46,913 bases of DNA from Lachnospiraceae bacterium NE2001 (GTDB lineage Bacteria; Bacillota; Clostridia; Lachnospirales; Lachnospiraceae). The stretch lies in the NCBI GenBank assembly GCA_900110635.1, contig FOEK01000024.1:1-46913 (forward strand), given 5' to 3'. Position numbers and translations under genes: made by a program. Below, piece after piece: positions 21,024-44,500 of this stretch (within the stretch, counting starts at the first letter, position 1; every line of letters starts with the position of its first letter). The notes below the pieces were generated by a model, which made no database searches, was not told the DNA's origin, and saw only the letters and a program-made list of their open reading frames with translations.

Positions 21024-22310
21024 GTGCGAGAATTAGCAGTTTTTCTAGAAATTCAAGGTTCTATTTGTCATATTGGAGATATAACAGGTGAAGACTACCG
21101 TGTGGCAGAGTTTAAGTATTTGGATGATTATTTACGCCTGAATGAGAGAAAGGCTCTTTCGATATCTATGCCTCTTTCTGAAACTCCATTTTCTTCTGAA
21201 AGAACAAGAAGTTTTTTTGAAGGCTTGTTACCTGAAGGCTTTTCTCGTACAGCAGTGGCTAACTGGATAAAAGTTGATGATAATGATTATTTAACTATTT
21301 TGTCTTCTCTTGGAAGAGAATGTCTTGGCGCAGTTAAAATAGTTGAAAAAGATACAGATAATAATATATCACCTAGAATGGGTTATAAGATACTATCTAT
21401 TCCTCAGGTCAAAAAACTGGCCGCGGAGGGCGCTACTAAATCAACAGAGATTCTGGTGAAGACGCATTTATCTTTGACTGGTGCTTCAGGAAAAGTTGGT
21501 CTCTACTATGATGATAAAAAGCGTAAATGGTATCTTCCAGAAGGAGATGCACCAAGTACGCATATTGTTAAACAAAGTCATGTAAGGCTTTCTCAGATAG
21601 TTTTTAATGAACAGTTATCACAGCTTACTGCAAAGAATTTGGGAATCGATGTGCCTGAAAGCTTTATTGTAAATACTGGAGAAGGATCTGACGGAGAAAT
21701 ACTTTTTGCTACAAAACGTTATGACAGAGTTTTGAATACAGGAAAGTTTATAGATAAATTTCAGATTCCTGAACGTCTTCATCAAGAAGATTTTGCTCAG
21801 GCTATGGGAATACCATCTAGTGAAAAGTATGAGAAAGAAAACTCAGGCTATATGGGAAGAATGTTTGACTTGGTAAGAGGAAATGTATCTGATCCTATTG
21901 CTGAAGAACTGAAGCTATGGAAACTGATATGCTTTAACTTCCTGATTGGTAATACAGATGCACATATTAAGAATTATTCGCTATTATACTCCGACGATAT
22001 GAAAAGAATTACCCTTGCGCCTGCTTATGACATAGTCTGTACAAGAGCATATAACTTAACAAATGAAATGAGCTTATATATAGGAAATGAAATCGATATA
22101 GACAGAATAAATCGAAGTACATTTGTTACTGCTTCAAAGGAGGTAGGTATATCAGAACGTATAGCACTAAAGATTTTTGATGAGGTTGCTGATGGCTTTG
22201 AAAAAGCAATAAATGATGCAGCGGAAACAATTGCAGAATCAGGATTTGAGAATATTAAGTCATTAAAAACAAAAATAAAAAAGAGTAGTGGATATAGAAA
22301 TCTAAAATGA
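21024..22310 (+). CDS. hipA: HipA-like Ser/Thr kinase toxin
   Basis: The 428-residue protein has the HipA N-terminal subdomain (about 5-105; FFEGLLPEGFSR) and the kinase core. Visible are the Gly-rich loop LTGASGKVGLYY, the HIVKQS strand, the catalytic loop IGNTDAHIKNYSLLY and the metal-binding APAYDI. Known HipA kinases phosphorylate tRNA synthetases and cause dormancy; the target here is unknown. It starts with GTG at 21024 behind AAGGGGG; the out-of-frame ATG at 21022 is quickly stopped. All active-site motifs look intact. Base composition is more AT-rich than the flanking genes, which hints at transfer. Confidence 0.93.
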   Translation: MRELAVFLEIQGSICHIGDITGEDYRVAEFKYLDDYLRLNERKALSISMPLSETPFSSERTRSFFEGLLPEGFSRTAVANWIKVDDNDYLTILSSLGRECLGAVKIVEKDTDNNISPRMGYKILSIPQVKKLAAEGATKSTEILVKTHLSLTGASGKVGLYYDDKKRKWYLPEGDAPSTHIVKQSHVRLSQIVFNEQLSQLTAKNLGIDVPESFIVNTGEGSDGEILFATKRYDRVLNTGKFIDKFQIPERLHQEDFAQAMGIPSSEKYEKENSGYMGRMFDLVRGNVSDPIAEELKLWKLICFNFLIGNTDAHIKNYSLLYSDDMKRITLAPAYDIVCTRAYNLTNEMSLYIGNEIDIDRINRSTFVTASKEVGISERIALKIFDEVADGFEKAINDAAETIAESGFENIKSLKTKIKKSSGYRNLK

Positions 22311-28248: not shown

Positions 28249-29559
28249 GTGAAGGTTAAGTGGCTATTTTTTGATGTTGGTTCAACGCTGGTAGATGAGG
28301 TGGAGTGTTATAAGAAAAGACTCACAATTATTGCAAATGCAGGAGGTGTAGAACCGGAATATGTATTTGAAAAAGCGATAGAACTCTATAAGCAGAATAG
28401 AAAAGGTGATCTTGAAATCGCAAATATGCTTCATGTGGATCTCCCAAAGTGGGATGCAGGTAGCGAAATGCTTTATCCGGATGCGGAGGATATTTTAAAA
28501 GAACTACATGAAAAATATAAGATAGGTGTTATAGCCAATCAGAATCTTGGAACAGCAGCCAGGCTGGAAAGATTTGGAATCCTAAAGTATATTGATCTAG
28601 TTGTAGCATCTGCTGAAGAAGGAGTTGCGAAACCTGACAGAAGGATATTTGACATCGCTCTTGAGAGAGCAGGAATAAAGCCTGAGGAAGCCTTTATGAT
28701 AGGAGACCGCATAGATAACGATATTATTCCGGCAAAGAATCTCGGTATGAAAACTATGTGGATAAGACAGGGCTTCGGAGGTCAGTGGAAGCTTAAAAGT
28801 AATGATGAGCTTCCAACCTTTATAGCGGATAGTCTTCCTGAGGTTGCATCAATACTTGATTGGTATGAGAACCAAAAGAGTCTTCTTGAGACAACTCAGA
28901 ATACTCGTGACCTTGGTGGTCTTCTTTGTAAGAATGGGGAGAGACCCCATTTTAATCGATTGATAAGAAGTGATAAGCAGTGTTATCCAAGTCGGAAAGA
29001 TATAGAGTTCTTAAAGGGGAACAATATAACAACAATTATTGACATGCGAACTCCGGAATATGTGGAGAGTGATCCTAGCGGTTTTGAAAATCTGGATGGC
29101 TTTACATATTATAACTTCCCTGTGGAGGAAGGAAGCAAAGTCCCAGAGTCAGTTGAGGCGGTGCCTGGAAGCTATATGAAGATAGCTGCTTCACCTGCTA
29201 TGAAGGAAATATTTACAACCATGGCAGAGTCAGAAGGCGGAGTAATGTATAACTGCTCTGCAGGAAAAGACAGAACTGGAGTGGTTACAGCAATACTGCT
29301 TATGCTCTGTGATGTAAAAGAGGAAGATATCATTTCTGATTATATGCTGACAAAAGAGTACAATAAGGAACGTTTCAAGATGGCAGCTATTCATCACCCT
29401 GGACTTGATCTTAATATTATTATTCCTAGAGAATCCTACATCAAGGATTTTATGGATCTTTTTATAAAAGAATATGGAAGTGTCAAAGGGTATTTTGATA
29501 GAATCGGTGTATCTGAAGACACTAGAAATCAACTAAAGAACAAATTGGTTAAAGCCTAA
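28249..29559 (+). CDS. HAD hydrolase fused to tyrosine-phosphatase-like domain
   Basis: The 436-residue protein has an N-terminal HAD domain (about 1-195: WLFFDVGSTLVDE with nucleophile Asp9, VIANQNLG, AEEGVAKPDRRIF, MIGDRIDNDI). A C-terminal dual-specificity phosphatase domain follows (about 205-436) with the Cys-loop NCSAGKDRTG and the entry phrase TRDLGGLLCKNG, typical of the Y_phosphatase3 group. The second HAD Asp is replaced by Gly (DVG), a change seen in some HAD subfamilies. It starts with GTG behind GGAGG. Both sites look usable. Linked dephosphorylation of one pathway's metabolites is possible but unproven. Confidence 0.9.
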   Translation: MKVKWLFFDVGSTLVDEVECYKKRLTIIANAGGVEPEYVFEKAIELYKQNRKGDLEIANMLHVDLPKWDAGSEMLYPDAEDILKELHEKYKIGVIANQNLGTAARLERFGILKYIDLVVASAEEGVAKPDRRIFDIALERAGIKPEEAFMIGDRIDNDIIPAKNLGMKTMWIRQGFGGQWKLKSNDELPTFIADSLPEVASILDWYENQKSLLETTQNTRDLGGLLCKNGERPHFNRLIRSDKQCYPSRKDIEFLKGNNITTIIDMRTPEYVESDPSGFENLDGFTYYNFPVEEGSKVPESVEAVPGSYMKIAASPAMKEIFTTMAESEGGVMYNCSAGKDRTGVVTAILLMLCDVKEEDIISDYMLTKEYNKERFKMAAIHHPGLDLNIIIPRESYIKDFMDLFIKEYGSVKGYFDRIGVSEDTRNQLKNKLVKA

Positions 29560-29628: not shown

Positions 29629-29946
29629 ATGCCGAAGAAATCGATAGTTTTATTGCCGGAAACAGAAGAAATATTATCTCAGATGGGATTACAAATAAAG
29701 TATGCTAGATTACGAAGAAAACTATCTTCGGAATTAGTGGCTGAAAGAGCAGGAATTAGTAGGGCTACTCTTGTTTCAATTGAGAAGGGAGCGCCTTCTG
29801 TTGCTATTGGATGTTATGCGGCGGTTCTTCATGCCTTAAATTATATGGATAAAGACTTTCTTCTTGTGGCAAAAGACGATGAGTTAGGAAGAAAGCTTCA
29901 AGACTTAGATCTTGCTGTTAAGAAAAGAGTTTCAAAACGAGGATGA
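29629..29946 (+). CDS. hipB: HipB-like antitoxin, XRE family
   Basis: The 105-residue protein has a central helix-turn-helix (about 20-75: IKYARLRRKLSSELVAERAG, then ISRATLVSIEKGAPSVAIG) and a basic C-terminal tail (LDLAVKKRVSKRG). A strong ribosome site AAGGAGG precedes the ATG. The HipA gene starts 5 bases after the stop. It is longer than and clearly different from the antitoxin at 20808. Confidence 0.9.
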   Translation: MPKKSIVLLPETEEILSQMGLQIKYARLRRKLSSELVAERAGISRATLVSIEKGAPSVAIGCYAAVLHALNYMDKDFLLVAKDDELGRKLQDLDLAVKKRVSKRG

Positions 29947-29950
29947 GTCT

Positions 29951-31204
29951 ATGAGTGAAGAAAGATGCATATATGTTTATGCGGACTTTTTAGATTTTCA
30001 TAATGACTTAATTGGAACAATCTATGTATCAAGAGAAAGAGGAAGAGAACATTACTCGTTTGAGTATGATTCCGGCTGGCTTGATAATTTTTTTATGTTG
30101 TTGGATCCTGATTTACATTTATATAAGGGAAGACAATTTATAAATGATGATAAGAATATATTCGGGATGTTCGCTGACTCCTGTCCTGATAGATGGGGGC
30201 GTCTTCTTATGAGAAGACGAGAGGAAATAAGAGCAAGAAAGCTGAATGAAAAACCTCAGAAGCTTTTAGAAAGTGATTATCTTCTTGGTGTATATGATGA
30301 ATCAAGAATGGGCGGACTTAGATTTAAGACAGATTTGGATGGTGAATTTCTTTCTAATGATAAAGGTTACACTACTCCACCTTGGACTTCTCTTAGAGAA
30401 TTAGAGGCTGCATCGATCGTATTTGAAAAAGATGAAAATACTTTTGACGAAAAGTGGTTAAAGCAGCTTATTGCTCCGGGCTCATCTCTTGGAGGTGCCA
30501 GACCTAAAGCATCTGTTATTGCACCAGATGGCACATTGTGGATAGCTAAGTTTCCTTCGAAACATGATGATTTTGATTCAGGAGCGTGGGAAATGGTTGT
30601 GCACGATCTGGCTGAACTCTGTGGTCTGAATGTACCTCAAGCAAAAACTGAAAAGTTTTCTAAAACTGGAACAACCTATCTTGTAAAAAGATTTGACAGA
30701 GATGAAGAGAAGAGAATTCATTTTTCTTCAGCTATGACGATGCTTGGAAAAAAAGATGGAGCTGATTCATCTGATGGAAGCAGCTATCTGGAAATGGCAT
30801 CTTTTATAAAGGCAAATGGAGCCCGACCTAAAAAAGACCTACAGGAATTGTGGTCACGGATAGTTTTCAATATGACAGTATCAAATACTGATGATCATTT
30901 TAGAAATCATGGCTTTTTATTAACAAAGGATGGCTGGATTCTTTCTCCAGTGTTTGATGTTAATCCCAATAATGCGGGAGAATACTTATCGCTAAATGTT
31001 GACTTATATGATTCAAGAATAGATTTTGATTTAGCTATTGAAACCGCACCATATTTTGATCTTAGTAAAAAACAGGCGAAGGAATCGATAGATAGAATAA
31101 AAGAATTAGTTGGTAATAACTGGAAGCAAGTAGCTAAGAAATATGGGATAAGCAGAAATGAAATCAACAGAATGAGTCCTGCTTTCCGATTATCGGAATT
31201 ATAA
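29951..31204 (+). CDS. hipA: HipA-like Ser/Thr kinase toxin
   Basis: The 417-residue protein carries the HipA N-terminal subdomain (about 1-105; GMFADSCPDRWGRLLMRRRE) and kinase motifs: the loop GSSLGGARPKASV, lysine strand LWIAKFPSK, RFDRDEEKRIHF, catalytic loop SNTDDHFRNHGFLL and metal-binding LSPVFDVNPN. All look intact. ATG 29951 is preferred over the longer frame from 29912, which overlaps hipB. Compared with the HipA at 21024 it belongs to a distinct subgroup (GARPK loop instead of GASGK). Target unknown. The module is AT-rich, suggesting transfer. Confidence 0.93.
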   Translation: MSEERCIYVYADFLDFHNDLIGTIYVSRERGREHYSFEYDSGWLDNFFMLLDPDLHLYKGRQFINDDKNIFGMFADSCPDRWGRLLMRRREEIRARKLNEKPQKLLESDYLLGVYDESRMGGLRFKTDLDGEFLSNDKGYTTPPWTSLRELEAASIVFEKDENTFDEKWLKQLIAPGSSLGGARPKASVIAPDGTLWIAKFPSKHDDFDSGAWEMVVHDLAELCGLNVPQAKTEKFSKTGTTYLVKRFDRDEEKRIHFSSAMTMLGKKDGADSSDGSSYLEMASFIKANGARPKKDLQELWSRIVFNMTVSNTDDHFRNHGFLLTKDGWILSPVFDVNPNNAGEYLSLNVDLYDSRIDFDLAIETAPYFDLSKKQAKESIDRIKELVGNNWKQVAKKYGISRNEINRMSPAFRLSEL

Positions 31205-32305: not shown

Positions 32306-33412
32306 ATGGTATTATTGGTTGTAGATACTCAGAAGGGAATTACAGACGGACGACTCTTCGAGTTCGATGATTTTAAGGATAATGTTAAGTATCTCATCGC
32401 AGAGGCGAGACGTGATAACGTAGAGGTTATCTATGTAAGACACGACGACGGCCCCGGCTCTGGATTCTCAGTAGGAGATGAGGATTTCGAGATATATGAC
32501 GAGTTTGCTCCTGAAGCAGGTGAAATGATATTTGACAAGAATGTTAATAGTGCATTTCACGCTTCTACAGGACTGCTTCAGTATCTTGAAATGAAGCACG
32601 TGAAGAAGGTGATGGTGGTAGGCCTTCAGACTGATTTCTGTATAGATGCCACTATCAAGAGTGGATTTGAACAGGGCTTTGAGATGATAGTTCCTGAGAA
32701 GGCGAACTCCACAAGAAATAATCAGTACATGGATGCGGAGTCTGCATACCGTTTTTATAACGAGTTCATGTGGCCTGGACGATATGCAACCTGTGTTTCT
32801 ATGGACGAGGCATTTAAGTTATTAAAGGACTATAAGCTTCAGGGAAATAAACAGGTTGTTGATGGTATCAATCCGTGTGGAACTCTTGAGATTGAGACTG
32901 ACAGACTGATCCTTAGACAATTTAGATATGAAGACGCTGATTCAATGCGCGTGAACTGGGCTGGACTGGACGAGGTTCAGAACATGTATGGTGAGCCGAG
33001 CTATAAGACTCCCGAGGCGGTTAAGGGTCTTCTGGACGAATACATCAGTGCATACAGAAATGGCTTCAATTACAGGTGGGCTATTATCGAGAAGGCTTCA
33101 GGCGAATGCATCGGTCAGGTGGCTTATTTCCTTGTTAATGTCAGTGGTAATTTTGGTGAAATAGAGTACTGCATCGGCACAGCCTTTCAGGGCAAGGGCT
33201 ACGCCACTGAGGCTACGAAGGCAATAATAGATTTTGGCTTTGAGAAGATACATTTCCACAAGGTGCAGATATGTGTCAGACCGTCTAACATATCGTCAAA
33301 GCGTGTTATAGAAAAATGTGATTTTGAGTATGAGGGTACTCTGAGAGATTACTTCCTGATTGACGGCGCTTATGAGGGCCGAATGTATTATTCAATCATT
33401 AATAAGATGTAA
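32306..33412 (+). CDS. Isochorismatase-like hydrolase fused to GNAT acetyltransferase
   Basis: The 368-residue protein has an N-terminal cysteine hydrolase domain (about 1-175) with the expected triad: Asp in LLVVDTQKG, Lys in IFDKNVNSAF and Cys in GLQTDFCIDATIKSG. A C-terminal GNAT domain follows (about 190-368: ETDRLILRQFRYEDADSM, GTAFQGKGYATEATKAIIDF, NISSKRVIEKCDFEYEG). AGGAGG lies ahead of the ATG. The parts usually occur as separate proteins; here they may act in turn on one amide or amine compound. Substrates are unknown. Confidence 0.92.
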   Translation: MVLLVVDTQKGITDGRLFEFDDFKDNVKYLIAEARRDNVEVIYVRHDDGPGSGFSVGDEDFEIYDEFAPEAGEMIFDKNVNSAFHASTGLLQYLEMKHVKKVMVVGLQTDFCIDATIKSGFEQGFEMIVPEKANSTRNNQYMDAESAYRFYNEFMWPGRYATCVSMDEAFKLLKDYKLQGNKQVVDGINPCGTLEIETDRLILRQFRYEDADSMRVNWAGLDEVQNMYGEPSYKTPEAVKGLLDEYISAYRNGFNYRWAIIEKASGECIGQVAYFLVNVSGNFGEIEYCIGTAFQGKGYATEATKAIIDFGFEKIHFHKVQICVRPSNISSKRVIEKCDFEYEGTLRDYFLIDGAYEGRMYYSIINKM

Positions 33413-36210: not shown

Positions 36211-36269
36211 GAATATTGCCGTTGTTTTATTATAAAATGTGACAGCTTATCGGTTTGTGGAGGTTGAGG

Positions 36270-37880
36270 ATGGATATACTGTTTGCGGAAAACTCAAAAA
36301 GGGAAGTTACGGAGCTGAGCCCTGATACGGTGAAGGACCTGGCACTTCAGGAGATAGTTGAAGGACTGTCGGGCAAAGAGAGAGATATCATAATCATCAA
36401 GGAGATTCTGTCTAGGATTCCAAAGGACCTGAGGGACAGCCAGTTCAGGCAGGAGATAATGAGGGATTTTCTGGAGAACGAGGCACTTACCGATGATATG
36501 GACAACGTTCTTGATATGATCAAGACATTGAAGGACTATGGCAGCACCAAGACTATGATCATGCAAAATGATTCGACGCTTTATGCCCTTTTGGAGAATC
36601 TGCGTGAGTTAACTACATATGTAAATGCGACCGAAGAATTGTATAACTGCTTGAAAAAATACGATGTAAAGTCGGAAGGTTTATGCAGGCTGAAGGAACA
36701 GCTGGGTGAAATAGTAGCGGATGAGAAGTTCGAGGAGGCTAAGGCTGATATAGACTTAATGTTGGAAGATTTATCCTGTGTTCGAAGCGCAAATGTAGGC
36801 GTGACATTTACCCCTGACATGAACATTGACGAGGTAAAGGTTGTTGATTTTGTTCCGTACAAGATCAAGTCAAAATATAAGTTTGCGGAGATTGCAGCTG
36901 AGTTTGCCAACATAATGAATGCGGGAAATCAGAATATTGGCGGTCCCAAGCCCATGGTGAATACAAGGGTTGTGGATCCGCTGCTGGTAGCTATGGCGCC
37001 AGTTATTGAGAAGCATCTTAAGAGGCATTTTGTCAGACTGAAGAGCACTATCTCCAAGTATCTGAAGTTCGACAACAGGTCTATGGTTGAAATGTATGAG
37101 GGCCTGGTTTTTTATATTGCAATAGCTCGTTTTGGAAGAAGACTTCAGGCAAATGGCGAAGTAATATGCTTTCCTGTTCTTTCCAAGCCGGATCAGGATG
37201 GCAGCTTCAAAGAGACTGATAAGTCATTTATGATCAAAGATTTATATAATGTCCGCCTTTATATTGCACAGGAAAAGAATATTGTCAAAAATGATTTCGA
37301 GTTTAGTCCTACGGAGAATCTTTTTATCCTCACGGGACCGAACCGTGGCGGAAAGACCATCATCGAGCAGGCCTTTGGTATCATATCGCTGATGGCGTCC
37401 ACGGGCTGCTTTGTGACAGCCAGCTCCTGTGCAGGCAGGCCATTTTCCAACATACTTACACATTTTCCAATAGATGAAAACCTTACTATAAACTATGGGC
37501 GTCTGGGCGAGGAAGCAGTCAGGATCAAAGAGATTGTTAAGACATCAAATGACACGACACTCATTCTTTTTAATGAGACTTACTCCACCACCAGCGCTGA
37601 GGATGGACTCTATCTATCCAAGGATCTTCTCCGGGTTCTTAAGGAAAAGGGGACTGCGGTTATATTTAACACACACATTCACGAGGTGGCCAGATCCATC
37701 GATGAGATGAATCAGTGGGATGGTCAGTCACATTTTACCAGTCTCATAATGGAGATAGTAAATAACGAAAACACCTTCAAGCTAAAGAGGAGCGAGCCAG
37801 ATTCCTGCTCCTACGCTATGAACATTGCCAGAAAGTATGGCATAACCTACGAACAGATGTCAAAGACAGGGGAAGCATGA
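36270..37880 (+). CDS. MutS-like ATPase (domain III/V only)
   Basis: The 536-residue protein lacks the mismatch-reading and connector domains of MutS. It keeps a helical core (about 100-340) and the ATPase domain (about 345-536) with Walker A TGPNRGGKT (355-363), Walker B LILFNET (431-437) and the FNTHIHEVARS switch. The Walker B Asp is Asn435 while the catalytic Glu436 is kept. The absence of a C-terminal Smr nuclease sets it apart from MutS2. Its stop overlaps the next gene by 4 bases. It is probably a DNA- or RNA-related clamp ATPase of unknown role rather than mismatch repair. Confidence 0.85.
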   Translation: MDILFAENSKREVTELSPDTVKDLALQEIVEGLSGKERDIIIIKEILSRIPKDLRDSQFRQEIMRDFLENEALTDDMDNVLDMIKTLKDYGSTKTMIMQNDSTLYALLENLRELTTYVNATEELYNCLKKYDVKSEGLCRLKEQLGEIVADEKFEEAKADIDLMLEDLSCVRSANVGVTFTPDMNIDEVKVVDFVPYKIKSKYKFAEIAAEFANIMNAGNQNIGGPKPMVNTRVVDPLLVAMAPVIEKHLKRHFVRLKSTISKYLKFDNRSMVEMYEGLVFYIAIARFGRRLQANGEVICFPVLSKPDQDGSFKETDKSFMIKDLYNVRLYIAQEKNIVKNDFEFSPTENLFILTGPNRGGKTIIEQAFGIISLMASTGCFVTASSCAGRPFSNILTHFPIDENLTINYGRLGEEAVRIKEIVKTSNDTTLILFNETYSTTSAEDGLYLSKDLLRVLKEKGTAVIFNTHIHEVARSIDEMNQWDGQSHFTSLIMEIVNNENTFKLKRSEPDSCSYAMNIARKYGITYEQMSKTGEA

Positions 37881-40030
37881 GTAAGACAAGGTCGAAAAAT
37901 ATACTGGGCATCTTCGCGGTGCTGATAATGTTACATCACCTGGGCCAGAAGGTTTCTGCGGCCTGGGTTCCTTCTGCGTTCCGGCGACATGGGCTGGAGC
38001 CCTTCGTGCCTATTGGATATCTGCTGGTGGCATTTTTCTTCTTTGTTTCAGGCTATGGTCTTATCAAGAGTGCAAGGTCGAAGGATGACTATTTTAAGGG
38101 CTTTCTGAAGAGAAGGATGAACCGCCTGCTTATGGTATTTGTCCTGACAAATATCATTTGGGGTGCTGTCAGGATTGTGTATAGCAACATGTATCTGCCG
38201 ACAAATCCTTATTCCTGGTATGTCTATACCATAGTCGTTATGTATTTTGGTTTCTTTTTCACATATAGAAGAGAAAGAAAGATATCATTTCTTCTTATGA
38301 CGGCGTGGCTTCTTGGCTATATAATTGTGTGTTACATTTTGATAAAAGGTAACTGGTGGTACAATTCGATTCCAACGTTTCTGCTGGGAATATATGTGGC
38401 TGATCACGAGGAAAAGGCCGTCGACAAGAAGACTCTTAAGCTCATTTTATGCGCAGCTATATTACTGTTAGGTTTTATTGTGTCTGAAAATATAGGCTCC
38501 ATCTATCAGGCACTGAATATTAAGGATTACGGAATTGTCAATTTTGCCTGTGTTGTACTTCAAATGCTGGCGTCTTCTGCATTTAGCTTTATTGTTTATC
38601 TTCTGCTGGCAGGTAAACCTGCTTTGAAGAACCAGAATGAAGGGGCCGATTCTGAGTCTTCTGTAAAATCTATTGAAGAAGATATGGAAAAAGATAAAGA
38701 AAAATCCCAGTCAGACAAAAAGAAAAATAAAGAAGAAGTCCAGTCAGATAATAAGGGGGTAAAGGGACTTGCACAGAAGGTACTGGCGTTTTACGGAGGC
38801 ATGACTCTCGAGTTTTACCTGCTCCACGGTATCTACGTTCAGGTTTTCGGACATCATTTTATAGATGATAAGACAAAGCCTGTATGCTATATCGAAAATG
38901 TGCTCGTTTATACTCTTGTCACATTCGTACTGGCTACAGCGACAGCATTTGCCATCAAAAAGGCAGGAGATTTTATTATATATTTCTATGGCCGTTCTCC
39001 AATGTTTCAGAAGATATTTACTGATTTTAAGCGCTATGTGATCATACTGGCGGCTATTTTCATGGTTATTACCATTGGGTATTCCATACATCGACACAGG
39101 CTTTCCGACGACTCCAGTGACAAGGTGGAGAAATACAAAACAGAGTATATAAAAAATGTGAATGTCCGTGGCACGGATGTATCGGTTTATACTGCAGGCG
39201 AGGGAGAGTATACGGCAGTTCTTCTAGGCTCTGATGAGGACCCGTGTTCCACTATGTATCTTCGTCCGTTGGCTGACTGCCTGGAGAAGAAAAACATAAA
39301 GGTTGTAATTATCGATTATCCAGGAAAAGGTTTCAGCAAAGATATGGATGGGGAGAGGACTACAGAGTTCTTTGCGGATTATATTCATGACACCCTGGAT
39401 GCTTTGGGCGAAAACGAGAATCTGATCCTGATTCCGAATCAGATATCTGCTATCTATGCATATAGATATATAGAAAAATATCCCGACACAGTTGCGGGTC
39501 TCGTTGCGGTGGATGGCGCCGTGCCGGAGCTGGCCACAAGATTCCTGGATGGAAACTTTAGCTCTGTATATGAATATAAATGGTATCTAAAAAGAATCAC
39601 TCGTCTGAACGCGATCAGCCAGAAGCTTCTTAAGGCCACAGGATACATCAGCTTCCAGACTCCACTGTATGATTATATGTTCTATGGCAGCGGTCTCAAA
39701 GAGTATTATAAAGCTATGGAAGAGATGTACATCAGAAACACTCTGAATGAGCCACATCAAAATGAATATATAAATATTTACGATAACTGTAATGCTGTCA
39801 GCGGATACACCCTGCCCCAGGACCTTCCGGCGGAGTTCCTGCTGGACAATACCCTCAAGGAAAACAAGTACTACGGCATCACGTGGGTTAACCAATACAA
39901 CCGAATGATTACCAATGATGAAATCCAGGAGATTACTGTTATCGCCGGTGATCCCAATGTAATCTACTACAACCCATCGATCATCGCAAAGCAAGTCGAA
40001 GACTTCATTACCGAACAACTAGCAAACTAA
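37877..40030 (+). CDS. Acyltransferase-3 membrane domain fused to alpha/beta-hydrolase-like domain
   Basis: The 717-residue protein has an N-terminal multi-helix membrane region resembling acyltransferase 3 (about 10-245; LIMLHHLG with a candidate active His). A Lys/Glu-rich cytoplasmic linker lies at about 252-295, then further helices to about 415. An alpha/beta-hydrolase-like domain follows (about 425-717; VVIIDYPGKGFSKDMDGE, LVAVDGAVPE). At the nucleophile elbow, where GxSxG is expected, the sequence is PNQISA with Gln522 in the nucleophile place, so the hydrolase part is probably inactive or altered. It starts inside the MutS-like stop codon. Confidence 0.8.
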   Translation: MSKTRSKNILGIFAVLIMLHHLGQKVSAAWVPSAFRRHGLEPFVPIGYLLVAFFFFVSGYGLIKSARSKDDYFKGFLKRRMNRLLMVFVLTNIIWGAVRIVYSNMYLPTNPYSWYVYTIVVMYFGFFFTYRRERKISFLLMTAWLLGYIIVCYILIKGNWWYNSIPTFLLGIYVADHEEKAVDKKTLKLILCAAILLLGFIVSENIGSIYQALNIKDYGIVNFACVVLQMLASSAFSFIVYLLLAGKPALKNQNEGADSESSVKSIEEDMEKDKEKSQSDKKKNKEEVQSDNKGVKGLAQKVLAFYGGMTLEFYLLHGIYVQVFGHHFIDDKTKPVCYIENVLVYTLVTFVLATATAFAIKKAGDFIIYFYGRSPMFQKIFTDFKRYVIILAAIFMVITIGYSIHRHRLSDDSSDKVEKYKTEYIKNVNVRGTDVSVYTAGEGEYTAVLLGSDEDPCSTMYLRPLADCLEKKNIKVVIIDYPGKGFSKDMDGERTTEFFADYIHDTLDALGENENLILIPNQISAIYAYRYIEKYPDTVAGLVAVDGAVPELATRFLDGNFSSVYEYKWYLKRITRLNAISQKLLKATGYISFQTPLYDYMFYGSGLKEYYKAMEEMYIRNTLNEPHQNEYINIYDNCNAVSGYTLPQDLPAEFLLDNTLKENKYYGITWVNQYNRMITNDEIQEITVIAGDPNVIYYNPSIIAKQVEDFITEQLAN

Positions 40031-40110: not shown

Positions 40111-41154
40111 ATGAAAAAGAAAGAAGAAAACCCAACCGGTGCGTCTAAACGCACGGTGAAACAACATATAGCAACAGGTCAGTTTTCGAAGGTCTACCTG
40201 CTTTACGGCAGTGAACCGTACCTGACGACATACTACAGGGATGAGATACGCGAAGCACTTATCAGTCGCGAAGACACAATGAACTGTACGGTGGTAGGAA
40301 CCGAGAACTTCAACGTGAATTCGTTGGTAAATGATGCAATCACGCTGCCTTTTTTTGCGGAGCATCGTGTGGTGGTGGTGAATAACAGCGGATATTTTGA
40401 TGCGTCTGATCCCACATTTATCGAAAACGTCCCACAGATACCTGATACGAATGTAGTGATCTTCTGCGAGGATAAGGTGAACAAGACAAAAAAGGCTTTT
40501 CTGGCTGCAAAGAAATGTCCTGATGTCACTATTTTAGAGTTCCAGATGCTGGAAAAGGCCGACCTTATTGCCTGGCTCGGTTCCATACTGGGTGAGGATG
40601 GTGTAAAGGTAAAGCTGTCGGTTCCGGAGAAAATCCTTGATTCCTGTGGCCCTGCAACCAACATGTATCTTTTGGAAAATGAAGCGATCAAGCTTCACGA
40701 TTATTGTATGGAGAAGGGTGTCGTTGACCCTGAGGATGTGGAGCTTCTATGTAAAAATGAAGTAGAGGACAAGGTCTTCGAGATGTGCCGTTCCATATCC
40801 CAGAAGAACTCGAAGTTGGCCATCAGTCAGTATAATGACCTGCTCACACTTAAACGTAAACCTGTTCAGATAATCAAGCGTATCGAGGGACAGTATGTTC
40901 AACTGCTGGAGACCAAACAGCTTCTTGAAGATGGAGTGAAGAAGAACGAATTAGCGACCAGATTCCGCGTCTCAGAATGGATCGCTGGCAGGCTCATTTC
41001 ACTGGCAAACTCTTATACGAAGCGACAGCTTATCGATGCGGTGGATGCGTGTCAGGATGCATTTTACCTAAATAACAGAGGTGGACTTATAGGAAATGCT
41101 TCCGTTGAAAACCTGATCATTAAGCTGCTAACCAACGCTGAATCGTCTGGTTAA
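40111..41154 (+). CDS. holA: DNA polymerase III subunit delta
   Basis: The 347-residue protein is the delta subunit of the clamp loader, which opens the beta clamp during loading at primed DNA. The N-terminal phrase TGQFSKVYLLYGSEPYLTTY is typical, with the degenerate nucleotide-binding fold expected for delta. The C-terminal helical domain carries FRVSEWIAGRLISLANSYTK and YLNNRGGLIGNASVENLIIK. Length is normal. The next gene is rpsT, an order conserved in Firmicutes. The start has no clear ribosome site. Confidence 0.95.
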   Translation: MKKKEENPTGASKRTVKQHIATGQFSKVYLLYGSEPYLTTYYRDEIREALISREDTMNCTVVGTENFNVNSLVNDAITLPFFAEHRVVVVNNSGYFDASDPTFIENVPQIPDTNVVIFCEDKVNKTKKAFLAAKKCPDVTILEFQMLEKADLIAWLGSILGEDGVKVKLSVPEKILDSCGPATNMYLLENEAIKLHDYCMEKGVVDPEDVELLCKNEVEDKVFEMCRSISQKNSKLAISQYNDLLTLKRKPVQIIKRIEGQYVQLLETKQLLEDGVKKNELATRFRVSEWIAGRLISLANSYTKRQLIDAVDACQDAFYLNNRGGLIGNASVENLIIKLLTNAESSG

Positions 41155-41253: not shown

Positions 41254-41422
41254 TGCTGCAAGGAAATGATTTCTATATGCCCGGTGCGAGAAGCATCGAA
41301 CGTGTCTTGGCTAAGTAGAGATTAGAGACCAGCGTATCAAAGAACGGCTGACTTTGATAGGATGGAATCGCGAGCGGCAGATACGTAGAATAGATATAAT
41401 CGAAAATCCGGAGGAACAAGAC
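41254..41422 (+). ncRNA. Structured 5' leader of rpsT
   Basis: The leader is long for a ribosomal protein gene and can fold. The clearest element is a perfect 8-bp hairpin TATCAAAG (41335-41342) / CTTTGATA (41352-41359) with loop AACGGCTGA, followed by GGATGGAATCGCGAGCGGC. It is a candidate site for S20 self-regulation; no named family was recognised. Confidence 0.45.
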
Positions 41423-41689
41423 ATGGCAAATATTAAATCTGCAAAGAAGAGAATTCTTACAAGCAAGAAGAGAGAGATGAGAAACAAGAGCATCAAGAGT
41501 AAGGTTAAGACTCTTGTAAAGAAGGTTGAGGCTGCTATCGAGGCTGGAAACAAGGCTGAGGCTGAGGAGGCACTTAAGGTTGCTATCTCTGAGATCAGCA
41601 AGGCTGCTAACAAGGGCATCTACCACAAGAACACAGCTTCACGTAAGATCTCACGTCTCACAGTTGCTGTCAACAAGATTGGTGAGTAA
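41423..41689 (+). CDS. rpsT: 30S ribosomal protein S20
   Basis: The 88-residue basic protein starts MANIKSAKKRILTSKKREMR and contains KSKVKTLVKKVEAAIEAG and GIYHKNTASRKISRLTVAVN, the full S20 profile. It binds 16S rRNA early in 30S assembly. The ATG at 41423 follows GGAGG by 8 bases; the longer open frame from 41354 lies in the untranslated leader. Codon use is strongly biased (AAG, GCT, GAG), as in highly expressed genes. Confidence 0.98.
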   Translation: MANIKSAKKRILTSKKREMRNKSIKSKVKTLVKKVEAAIEAGNKAEAEEALKVAISEISKAANKGIYHKNTASRKISRLTVAVNKIGE

Positions 41690-41739
41690 TTCTAATATAT
41701 AGGCTGCTCCTTGAGGAGCAAACAAAGAGAAATACGAAG

Positions 41740-41771
41740 ACAGTCTGGACATTATCCAGACTGTTTTTTTT
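41740..41771 (+). terminator. rpsT terminator
   Basis: Perfect 10-bp stem ACAGTCTGGA / TCCAGACTGT with loop CATTA, followed by a T run. A smaller hairpin TGCTCC/GGAGCA lies at 41704-41719. Confidence 0.95.
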
Positions 41772-41868: not shown

Positions 41869-44484
41869 ATGATAGAGACAAATACAGAAAAAAGAATTAA
41901 TGGTAAAAAGGAACCTCAGGATACTACAGCGAATAGAACGCCGGAGAACGTCTTGGTGTGCGGTGGTATTAGAGATGAGCGAATGACAAACTATGTAGAG
42001 CCAGCCATCCTTAATTCGGAGGGAAGCCTGGTCATCACGGACCTGGATGGCCAGCTTTACAGGCGTTATAAGGAGTATCTGACAGATAAGGGCTATGCGG
42101 TTAAGAAGATAGATTTTCATGATATGGATAATTCTGTGGGTTTCAATCTCTTTCAGAATCTTAAGTCCTATGGGGGAGATCACGAGATAGAGGAGGGCAT
42201 AACTAGGATTGTAACTTCTTTATATAAGGTTCGTTCCAAGGAGCTATTAGGAGATAAACCGGACAGTTTTTTTGAACTTCTTGCACAGGCACTACTCAAG
42301 GCTATAATTTGTTATATCACATACCACTGTTTGCCAAGGTTTTCAGATTTTGACAATGTGGAGATGATGCTGGATGCCTTGAAGCCTTCAGACGATAAGG
42401 ACGAAAATACGGTTCTTGATTACATCTTCGAACAGCTGCAGGAGACCTGTCCTGATTCTCCTGCGCTAAAGTATTACAAGGTGTTTTCAAATATCTCGGG
42501 CAATTTGCTTCGAAGAGCCCAGCTTATAGCTTGGAAGACATTGGATGGAATAACAAGTGACAATGTGAATCAGTTTATGGCTAAGGATGACTTTGAAATT
42601 GAGGATCTGGCAAATGAGAAGATTGCACTTTTTGTCATAGCTGCAGGGGAAGATGATACGTATCATGGTCTTACAAATGCTATTGTAACTGAGATCATGT
42701 ATAAGCTACTTGATATATCTATTAAACTTCCATCTCAAGTAGACAATGAAAAGGCAGAGTCGCATGATAATATGCTTAAGGTTCCGGTTCAGTTTATAGT
42801 TGAGGGTTTTGCACCTGGGGCTGGAATAGTCCAGCTGAGGAACATTATGTGTGTTTTGAAGAGGGCCAATATCTCACTTCTCAGTGTGCATCGAAGTCTT
42901 CGAGAGTACGAGCAGATTTACAGCGATGTCCATTGGCTGCTTGGCGGCTACAGTGAGATTCATCTCCTGGATGGCCCGAGTTTTCTCGCTTACAGCAAGC
43001 TTAAAGGCTTTTATAGTGGAGAGTATGTTTATCTTGATGTGCCCCTTGGCTACGAATGGAGGGTGAAGCAGGAGCACATAACTCCTGAGAGACAGTTTGG
43101 AGGAGCCTCTTATATAAGAGGTAGAATGGGATTATACCTGAAGCCTGGCGAGAGAATCTTTGAGAACGATTACCAGGACTGTTTTGATGATGCAGATGAG
43201 CAGCTTGAAATGATGAACATTGTCTCTCTAAATATGTTGGCGAGAACGCTTGAGAGAGATAATATATCAGGCACTAAGAAGCCAGGGATAAAGAGACCTA
43301 GTAATTTAACGGTAAAAGGACCGACTGCTCAGGGCAGTACTCCGGTTGGAGAGAAAACATTTGATAGTGCAAAAGAAGCCCCAAGGACAATCAATGGAGC
43401 TCGCTACCGTGCCTATATGAATCAGATAAAGAACAAGAAGACTGACGATGAGAGGGCGGAAGCAAGAAAACGCCAGCGTTCAGCTGACACAGACTTTGAC
43501 AACGTGTATTGCAACATAATCGCCCAGTGGCTGGAGAAAACCACCTTCAACGAGTTCAGTGCTGAGATACATAAGCGTGTCAAGGGGCAGGACCAGCTGG
43601 ATACCATTCTTATTAACATTTATAACTATCTGGAAAATATGGCACGAGGACATTTTCATAGCAATAACATAATTATCGCAGCTCCAAGTGGCTGTGGTAA
43701 GACCGAGACCTACCGAGCTCTCAAGGCATATTTTGCAAAAGAACTCTCACAGCTTCCAATTGCTCAGGTGGATATGACCTCTATCACCGAGGAGGGCTTC
43801 AAGGGGCGCGACACCAAGGCGGTGATCGAACCCCTTATGGTAGATGCAGATCTGGGCGGTATGGGCATAATCTTCCTGGATGAGTTCGATAAGAGACTCA
43901 TTCCAAGCTACGATAGTGGTGGTGGAAATGTAAATAGAGCCGTACAGTCGCAGCTGCTTACCACCATCGAGGGTACTAACTTCCCAGACTGTGACATAGA
44001 TACCAACCTTACGATGTTTATCGGACTTGGTGCATTTGATGTGTGCCGCGAAAAAAAGTCAAAGGTTGAAAAGCATATTGGTTTCGGCGCAGAGAACGAG
44101 GGTGGTGCTGATCACTACGAGGATATAACCCGTGCGGATATGATCGAGCTTGGTGCAAGCTACGAATTGCTCGGTCGCTTTGGTACGGTTGTGAACTACC
44201 ACAAGCTTTCCGATACTGTGATTAACGAGATAATAGACGGAATGGTGAAAGACATTGGTAACTCCATCAGTATGAAGGTTAATATCACCGATGGTTTCCG
44301 TGAACTCCTCCATAGTTCCGCTAATGGCAAATACGGCTGTCGCCTCATTAAGAGTCAGCTCAATGATGCCGCAATGACCGCCTACCTGCACATCCAGAAG
44401 AATGCCGTCGACAAGACAGCCAATACCCTGGAGATCACCGGCCCCGCCACCTTCCAACTCAGTGAGGTTGTCACGTCCCCGTGA
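41869..44484 (+). CDS. Chimera: degenerate VirD4/TraG-like domain + ClpX-like AAA+ unfoldase
   Basis: The 871-residue protein has two large parts. Residues about 27-430 align by eye with conjugative coupling proteins: SLVITDLDGQLYRRYKEYL, LLAQALLKAIICYIT, LANEKIALFVI and VQFIVEGFAPGAG. The Walker A place reads GGIRDERMTN (32-41) and the Walker B Asp-Glu is Glu312-Gly313, so this part cannot hydrolyse ATP as VirD4 does. No N-terminal membrane helices are present. Residues about 555-865 form a ClpX-like AAA+ module: Walker A APSGCGKT (605-612), pore loop GFKG (643-646), Walker B IIFLDE (667-672), IGF (737-739), Arg finger R770 in LLGRFG and sensor-2 R825 in GCRLIK. The ClpX zinc domain is missing. 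TGGAGG precedes the ATG. Function unknown. Confidence 0.85.
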   Translation: MIETNTEKRINGKKEPQDTTANRTPENVLVCGGIRDERMTNYVEPAILNSEGSLVITDLDGQLYRRYKEYLTDKGYAVKKIDFHDMDNSVGFNLFQNLKSYGGDHEIEEGITRIVTSLYKVRSKELLGDKPDSFFELLAQALLKAIICYITYHCLPRFSDFDNVEMMLDALKPSDDKDENTVLDYIFEQLQETCPDSPALKYYKVFSNISGNLLRRAQLIAWKTLDGITSDNVNQFMAKDDFEIEDLANEKIALFVIAAGEDDTYHGLTNAIVTEIMYKLLDISIKLPSQVDNEKAESHDNMLKVPVQFIVEGFAPGAGIVQLRNIMCVLKRANISLLSVHRSLREYEQIYSDVHWLLGGYSEIHLLDGPSFLAYSKLKGFYSGEYVYLDVPLGYEWRVKQEHITPERQFGGASYIRGRMGLYLKPGERIFENDYQDCFDDADEQLEMMNIVSLNMLARTLERDNISGTKKPGIKRPSNLTVKGPTAQGSTPVGEKTFDSAKEAPRTINGARYRAYMNQIKNKKTDDERAEARKRQRSADTDFDNVYCNIIAQWLEKTTFNEFSAEIHKRVKGQDQLDTILINIYNYLENMARGHFHSNNIIIAAPSGCGKTETYRALKAYFAKELSQLPIAQVDMTSITEEGFKGRDTKAVIEPLMVDADLGGMGIIFLDEFDKRLIPSYDSGGGNVNRAVQSQLLTTIEGTNFPDCDIDTNLTMFIGLGAFDVCREKKSKVEKHIGFGAENEGGADHYEDITRADMIELGASYELLGRFGTVVNYHKLSDTVINEIIDGMVKDIGNSISMKVNITDGFRELLHSSANGKYGCRLIKSQLNDAAMTAYLHIQKNAVDKTANTLEITGPATFQLSEVVTSP

Positions 44485-44500
44485 CAACCTCATAATTTTA
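44464..44500 (+). terminator. Terminator overlapping the chimera's stop codon
   Basis: Perfect 12-bp stem GAGGTTGTCACG (44464-44475) / CGTGACAACCTC (44480-44491) with loop TCCC, followed by ATAATTTTA. The TGA stop at 44482-44484 lies in the 3' arm. Confidence 0.85.

Follow-up and report, generated by a model that had tools for sequence, protein, structure and literature searches.

A VirD4-type domain without ATPase motifs fused to a ClpX-like AAA+ module in Lachnospiraceae, with soluble relatives encoded beside ClpP

The window analysed here, a stretch of 46,913 nucleotides from Lachnospiraceae bacterium NE2001, contains a genuine gene of unusual fusion architecture, in which a VirD4/TraG-type domain that has lost both of its Walker motifs is joined by a linker to a ClpX-like AAA+ module. 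Our preferred explanation, to which we assign a probability of roughly 55%, is that the product is a ClpX-type unfoldase that works with ClpP, the pseudo-VirD4 domain replacing the zinc-binding N domain as a substrate- or partner-binding module. The gene is a single frame of 871 codons with GGAGG preceding its ATG, and it looks monocistronic since terminator-like hairpins lie before it and over its stop codon (the scan returned 9 terminator-like sites in all, against 2.8 expected). An assembly artefact was ruled out, because Lachnospiraceae bacterium AC2031 (on one contig) and the metagenome-assembled genome RUG10561 show the identical architecture. The features of the locus are as follows.

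40111 to 41154, + strand: holA (NCBIfam), marker of a common chromosomal site, also upstream in AC2031 and G008
41354 to 41689, + strand: rpsT, ribosomal protein S20 (Pfam), also upstream in AC2031 and G008
41736 to 41768, + strand: terminator-like hairpin after rpsT (hairpin scan)
41869 to 44484, + strand: 871-aa fusion of pseudo-VirD4 N half, linker and ClpX-like AAA+ C half (ORF, Pfam, NCBIfam)
41926 to 43083, + strand: VirD4/TraG-type domain, about residues 20-405, Walker A and B both lost
41962 to 41991, + strand: former Walker A, GGIRDERMTN (GGNREERMTK in AC2031 and RUG10561; alignment)
42091 to 42117, + strand: GYAVKKIDF motif (alignment)
42802 to 42807, + strand: former Walker B acidic pair, E312 G313 (D A in AC2031), the site reading VEGF (alignment)
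43042 to 43068, + strand: PLGYEWRVK, like the PVGxxWIFRR of ClpP-linked VirD4 proteins L036, L059 and L060 (alignment)
43186 to 43503, + strand: linker, far shorter in AC2031 (alignment)
43504 to 44481, + strand: ClpX-like AAA+ module, residues 546-871 (Pfam, NCBIfam, alignment)
43684 to 43704, + strand: AAA+ Walker A, PSGCGKT (alignment)
43795 to 43806, + strand: pore loop 1, GFKG (GYVG in the ClpX of the same genome; alignment)
43873 to 43884, + strand: AAA+ Walker B, FLDE (alignment)
44077 to 44085, + strand: IGF, at the position of the ClpP-docking loop of ClpX (alignment)
44176 to 44178, + strand: arginine finger R770, in GRF (alignment)
44335 to 44343, + strand: sensor 2, GCR (alignment)
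44462 to 44493, + strand: terminator-like hairpin spanning the fusion stop codon (hairpin scan)

Both halves are recognized by the TraG/VirD4 and ClpX profile searches that the earlier note had proposed as a check. Pfam T4SS-DNA_transf matches residues 22-280 (2.3e-16) and AAA_2 residues 600-771 (8.5e-9), each above its cut-off, and the NCBIfam models for the CD1115 VirD4-like protein (NF045973; 3.7e-48, 164.5 bits) and for ClpX (5.3e-18, 65.1 bits) match below their cut-offs of 250 and 359 bits. The C-terminal half has all of its AAA+ motifs intact, as the same note had read from the letters: PSGCGKT, GFKG, FLDEFDK, IGF, GRF and GCR. The IGF occurs at the docking site in 12 of 13 aligned rows; since ClpX proteins generally keep it, its presence shows simply that docking has not been lost. 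The alignment revealed no counterpart in the fusion of the cysteine-rich N end of the genome's own ClpX, and no Pfam match to such a zinc-binding domain was found; the RKH-loop segment of that ClpX is absent from the AAA half as well. These absences would suit a remodelling chaperone, independent of ClpP, whose AAA+ ring dismantles a complex bound by the VirD4 domain without degrading it, and so would the monocistronic appearance of the gene and the fact that no ClpP gene stands beside any of the three fusions. We regard such a chaperone as rather unlikely, however, given that the IGF is retained in 8 of 9 fusion-type AAA rows and that relatives of both halves adjoin ClpP in genome G479.

In the N-terminal half the alignment bears out that Walker A and Walker B are erased (GGIRDERMTN and VEGF), and the RSR segment present in VirD4 relatives is gone. 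No N-terminal membrane segment is present: the highest 19-residue hydropathy within the first 150 residues is 1.35, compared with values above 1.6 in 37 of 39 long VirD4 rows. The fold itself persists, as anticipated in the earlier note, in that a structure model built from an alignment of 18 rows, VirD4 relatives included, retains the fold of TrwB and Cag-beta (pLDDT 72). The 18-row profile matched Cag5 among PDB sequences (4.6e-11), and a profile of the N halves of the three fusions alone matched no VirD4 structure there, its best hit being an unrelated protein at E 0.21. A full-length model of the fusion, drawn from 3 rows, had a mean pLDDT of 35 and was set aside.

The eroded ATPase elements, an N-half identity of about 40% between the window and the other two fusions, and the missing C end of the domain in AC2031 (the PLGYEWRVK region is absent from both AC2031 and RUG10561) could be taken to mean that the N half is a functionless passenger in decay. 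Its sequence is nevertheless constrained in the one genome pair compared, AC2031 and RUG10561, where dN/dS is 0.079 for the N half (8 nonsynonymous and 24 synonymous changes) and 0.022 for the AAA half (3 and 32). Moreover, the three fusions, two of which are mutually close, all keep the residues R, E, R, M and T at the former P-loop, and we hold decay to be very improbable.

The relatives of the N half were placed in a tree of VirD4-type proteins, for which 74 of 89 rows were kept (2 fragments, 1 duplicate from G479, 11 near-copies and L103, a distant 680-aa type, were left out); it is a quick search with SH-aLRT support only, and the fusion sits on a very long branch. A conjugative-type clade comprises 45 of the 74 rows (support 98), and the fusion rows fall outside it, on the soluble side. 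Scanning the loci of the relatives, of which at most the best 30 were read per genome search, revealed a tendency for the genes of short VirD4-like proteins lacking a membrane segment to adjoin a ClpP-type gene. ClpP lies within 600 bases on the same strand in 21 of the 26 soluble rows outside the conjugative clade, a count that by choice includes L157, which was found through a ClpP search (20 of 25 without it); the rows lacking such a neighbour are L048, whose contig edge lies 31 bases upstream, L081, L082, L106 and L107. None of the 45 conjugative rows has a ClpP neighbour, 39 of them showing at least 600 bases on each side. Counted by length, 20 of 29 short rows (up to 500 aa) are ClpP-linked versus 0 of 39 long rows, with 1 kb visible on either side. 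A hydrophobic N-terminal segment is found in none of the 21 ClpP-linked rows as opposed to 37 of the 39 long ones. The Walker B site is D-D in all 26 soluble rows, most of which have a full P-loop, and follows a D-E pattern in 37 of the 45 conjugative rows.

ClpP comes first in most of these gene pairs and second in G059, G152 and G479, and in four pairs, with start codons assigned mechanically, the two ORFs overlap by 4 to 37 bases. Those of the linked ClpP proteins that were aligned with the housekeeping ClpP keep Ser, His and Asp at matching positions, and the four that were scanned match Pfam CLP_protease at 1.2e-47 or better. Further pairs are present on a viral-collection contig (L170) and, twice, in G910, which belongs to a different family of the class. 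Another, on contig 33 of the window's own genome (L134:10173-12147), is adjoined by a 266-aa gene of no assigned function; about 2.4 kb from it is a gene for a 1197-aa protein that weakly matches a STAND NTPase. Among 16 pairs read with wider flanks, a ClpX-like gene is found at 4 loci and at none of the other 12. The G479 locus (L070) has three consecutive genes on one strand, encoding a fusion-type AAA protein, a VirD4-like protein with an intact P-loop and ClpP. In G012, G034 and G006 a shorter ClpX-like gene stands about 1 kb before the pair within a larger gene order common to the three.

That order (L138:2350-13785 in G012, L139, L140) runs from a large protein of 1125-1165 aa through a ClpX-like protein of 323-328 aa, a protein of about 300 aa, ClpP and a VirD4-like protein with an altered P-loop (GGxGxN/MKT) to proteins of about 310 and 110 aa, with extra genes interspersed in G012. 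The large protein, tested for G012, matches PHROG 8308 (function unknown) at 3.8e-78, and Pfam gave no match for three uncharacterised G012 proteins of the order, which is a candidate multi-gene Clp system.

The closest kin of the N half are probably the soluble VirD4-like ATPases beside ClpP, judging from the best single bit scores, the GYxVKKxDF motif and the C-terminal PxGxxW motif. GYxVKKxDF occurs in all three fusions and in four ClpP-linked proteins (L036, L059, L060 and L066), in 0 of 22 other soluble and 0 of 45 conjugative rows, and it is absent from both G910 VirD4-like proteins, which were found later. A PVGxxWIFRR-like end is shared by 3 of the 4 ClpP-linked bearers of that motif and by 0 of 45 conjugative rows; both motifs were chosen after looking at the alignment. 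Profile comparison with hhalign scored 293.8 over 358 columns against the ClpP-linked profile and 275.4 over 315 against the conjugative one, a modest gap. The tree does not fix the exact place of the fusion among the soluble rows: in an AU test neither holding it with the ClpP-linked subclade (p 0.35) nor holding the soluble rows together without it (p 0.52) was rejected. In AC2031 no protein other than the fusion matches PF02534, and ClpP is present once; for the window's genome the counts are three PF02534 and three ClpP matches. Because its VirD4 relatives pair with ClpP genes, the fusion probably belongs to protein degradation and not to DNA transfer. The suggestion in the earlier note of a dead DNA pump turned platform stands as to the VirD4 fold, its inactivation and a plausible platform role; a dead conjugative DNA pump is not the best reading of the domain.

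The retained TrwB and Cag-beta fold would also be in keeping with an N half that still binds DNA or a relaxosome and steers the unfoldase to nucleoprotein complexes of mobile elements. This we consider improbable, in view of the position of the fusion outside the conjugative clade and of its chromosomal holA-rpsT site. Furthermore, Pfam detected no relaxase or type IV secretion gene among the 17 other window ORFs scanned, in agreement with the earlier note, and no PF03432 relaxase, the one relaxase family searched, occurs in the window's whole genome, though AC2031 and RUG10561 each contain one away from the fusion. One is also present in G059, and none in G156, a genome with two ClpP-VirD4 pairs.

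Other proteins of the window include a 541-aa protein (36255-37880) with MutS domain V as its sole strong Pfam match, a 717-aa protein (37877-40030) with an acyltransferase-3 domain and, after it, a weak match to an alpha/beta hydrolase (Pfam), and two HipA-type proteins (21024-22310 and 29912-31204). Two double-domain enzymes join an isochorismatase to a GNAT acetyltransferase (32306-33412) and a HAD hydrolase to a tyrosine phosphatase (28249-29559).

Searching 61 genomes of the genus with the full protein gave matches in 5, at E 1e-26 or better. The earlier note had regarded an isolated fusion, with homologues of its halves as separate genes, as counting against it; relatives of the halves are indeed separate genes, adjacent in G479, but the fusion recurs in 3 of the 61 genomes (the window's, AC2031 as G005 and RUG10561 as G033). 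The remaining two, G008 and G059, carry the fusion-type AAA half on a different N domain common to both (KLNKYxLGxxFYxGxxLFIK; L038:8641-10296 and L037:11-1705), and the Pfam matches of the G008 protein are confined to its AAA part. Across 397 genomes of the family, taking the best 2 candidates per genome, 14 match: that of the window, four with the AAA half and no VirD4 domain (G244, G427, G479 and G380) and nine with VirD4-type proteins only. The best 5 candidates per genome in 392 genomes of the order added one further AAA relative, G700. Downstream, AC2031, RUG10561 and G008 share a glgB-like gene, and the window contig stops short of that point; in AC2031 rpsT and the fusion are about 10 kb apart, with four other large ORFs between them. 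The 10-kb contig of G059 and the loci of the four family relatives contain none of the three markers. The shared markers indicate that the same chromosomal region holds the AAA gene in at least three genomes while its N domain varies, and the differing N domain at the holA-rpsT site of G008 is what would be expected if the N domain sets specificity.

A recent mobile element was rejected as an origin. Viral contigs yielded no full-protein relative by exact-peptide patterns, which would show close ones only, and no record among 636 plasmid and 77 phage records covered 80% of the protein, the matches spanning one half only. With the AAA profile, the best 80 of 87 viral matches were distant ClpX-like proteins only (best E 7e-25). 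A defence system was likewise rejected, PADLOC giving weak AAA matches only for the window protein (best DolB, 28.1 bits).

ClpP takes substrates from the AAA+ unfoldases ClpX, ClpA and ClpC, and both VirD4 and ClpX belong to families that form hexamers, so a fused double ring is possible. Under the preferred reading, an ancestor akin to the soluble VirD4-like ATPases beside a ClpP paralogue would have been joined to ClpX, which would supply the ATP-driven pulling; the VirD4 domain would then have lost its own ATPase and been retained on the ClpX ring to bind substrates or partners. That ring would bind ClpP through the IGF and pull substrates brought by the pseudo-VirD4 domain. More tentatively, and with the odds somewhat against it, VirD4-fold (HerA/FtsK-type) ATPases may have become motor partners of ClpP-type proteases, a class of Clp ATPases outside AAA+, and the fusion a chimera with the ClpX ring as its motor and the VirD4 ring as a dead receptor. 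A recurring pair of ClpP and a VirD4-type motor, together with a natural fusion of a dead motor to ClpX, would give DNA-transfer-type motors a second life in protein degradation, of which the pair and the fusion offer a direct test.

The soluble VirD4-like ATPases beside ClpP are described here; a literature search by title and abstract opening, with most subscription papers and preprints outside its coverage, found no paper on VirD4-ClpP pairs or the fusion. Among known systems, ClpI of Actinomycetota is likewise a Clp unfoldase class defined from sequence, with a variable N domain and a ClpP-docking motif in some members only, but it is a double-ring enzyme similar to ClpB and ClpC, and the abstract of that report mentions no VirD4 domain (PMC10149685). 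ClpX (PRK05342 / TIGR00382) has the AAA+ core, pore loop, IGF, arginine finger and sensor 2 in common with the fusion, which differs in having a VirD4-type N half, in lacking the zinc-binding domain and RKH-loop segment, and in scoring far under the family cut-off. The soluble ClpP-linked VirD4-like ATPases resemble it in having no membrane segment and, in four cases, GYxVKKxDF, yet they keep the Walker B D-D (26 of 26) and mostly a full P-loop, whereas in the fusion both are lost and no ClpP gene is adjacent. The CD1115 coupling proteins (NF045973), TrwB and Cag-beta share the fold and sequence of the N half; unlike them, the fusion is without Walker A and B and an N-terminal membrane segment, no conjugation genes were detected near it, and it is joined to an unfoldase.
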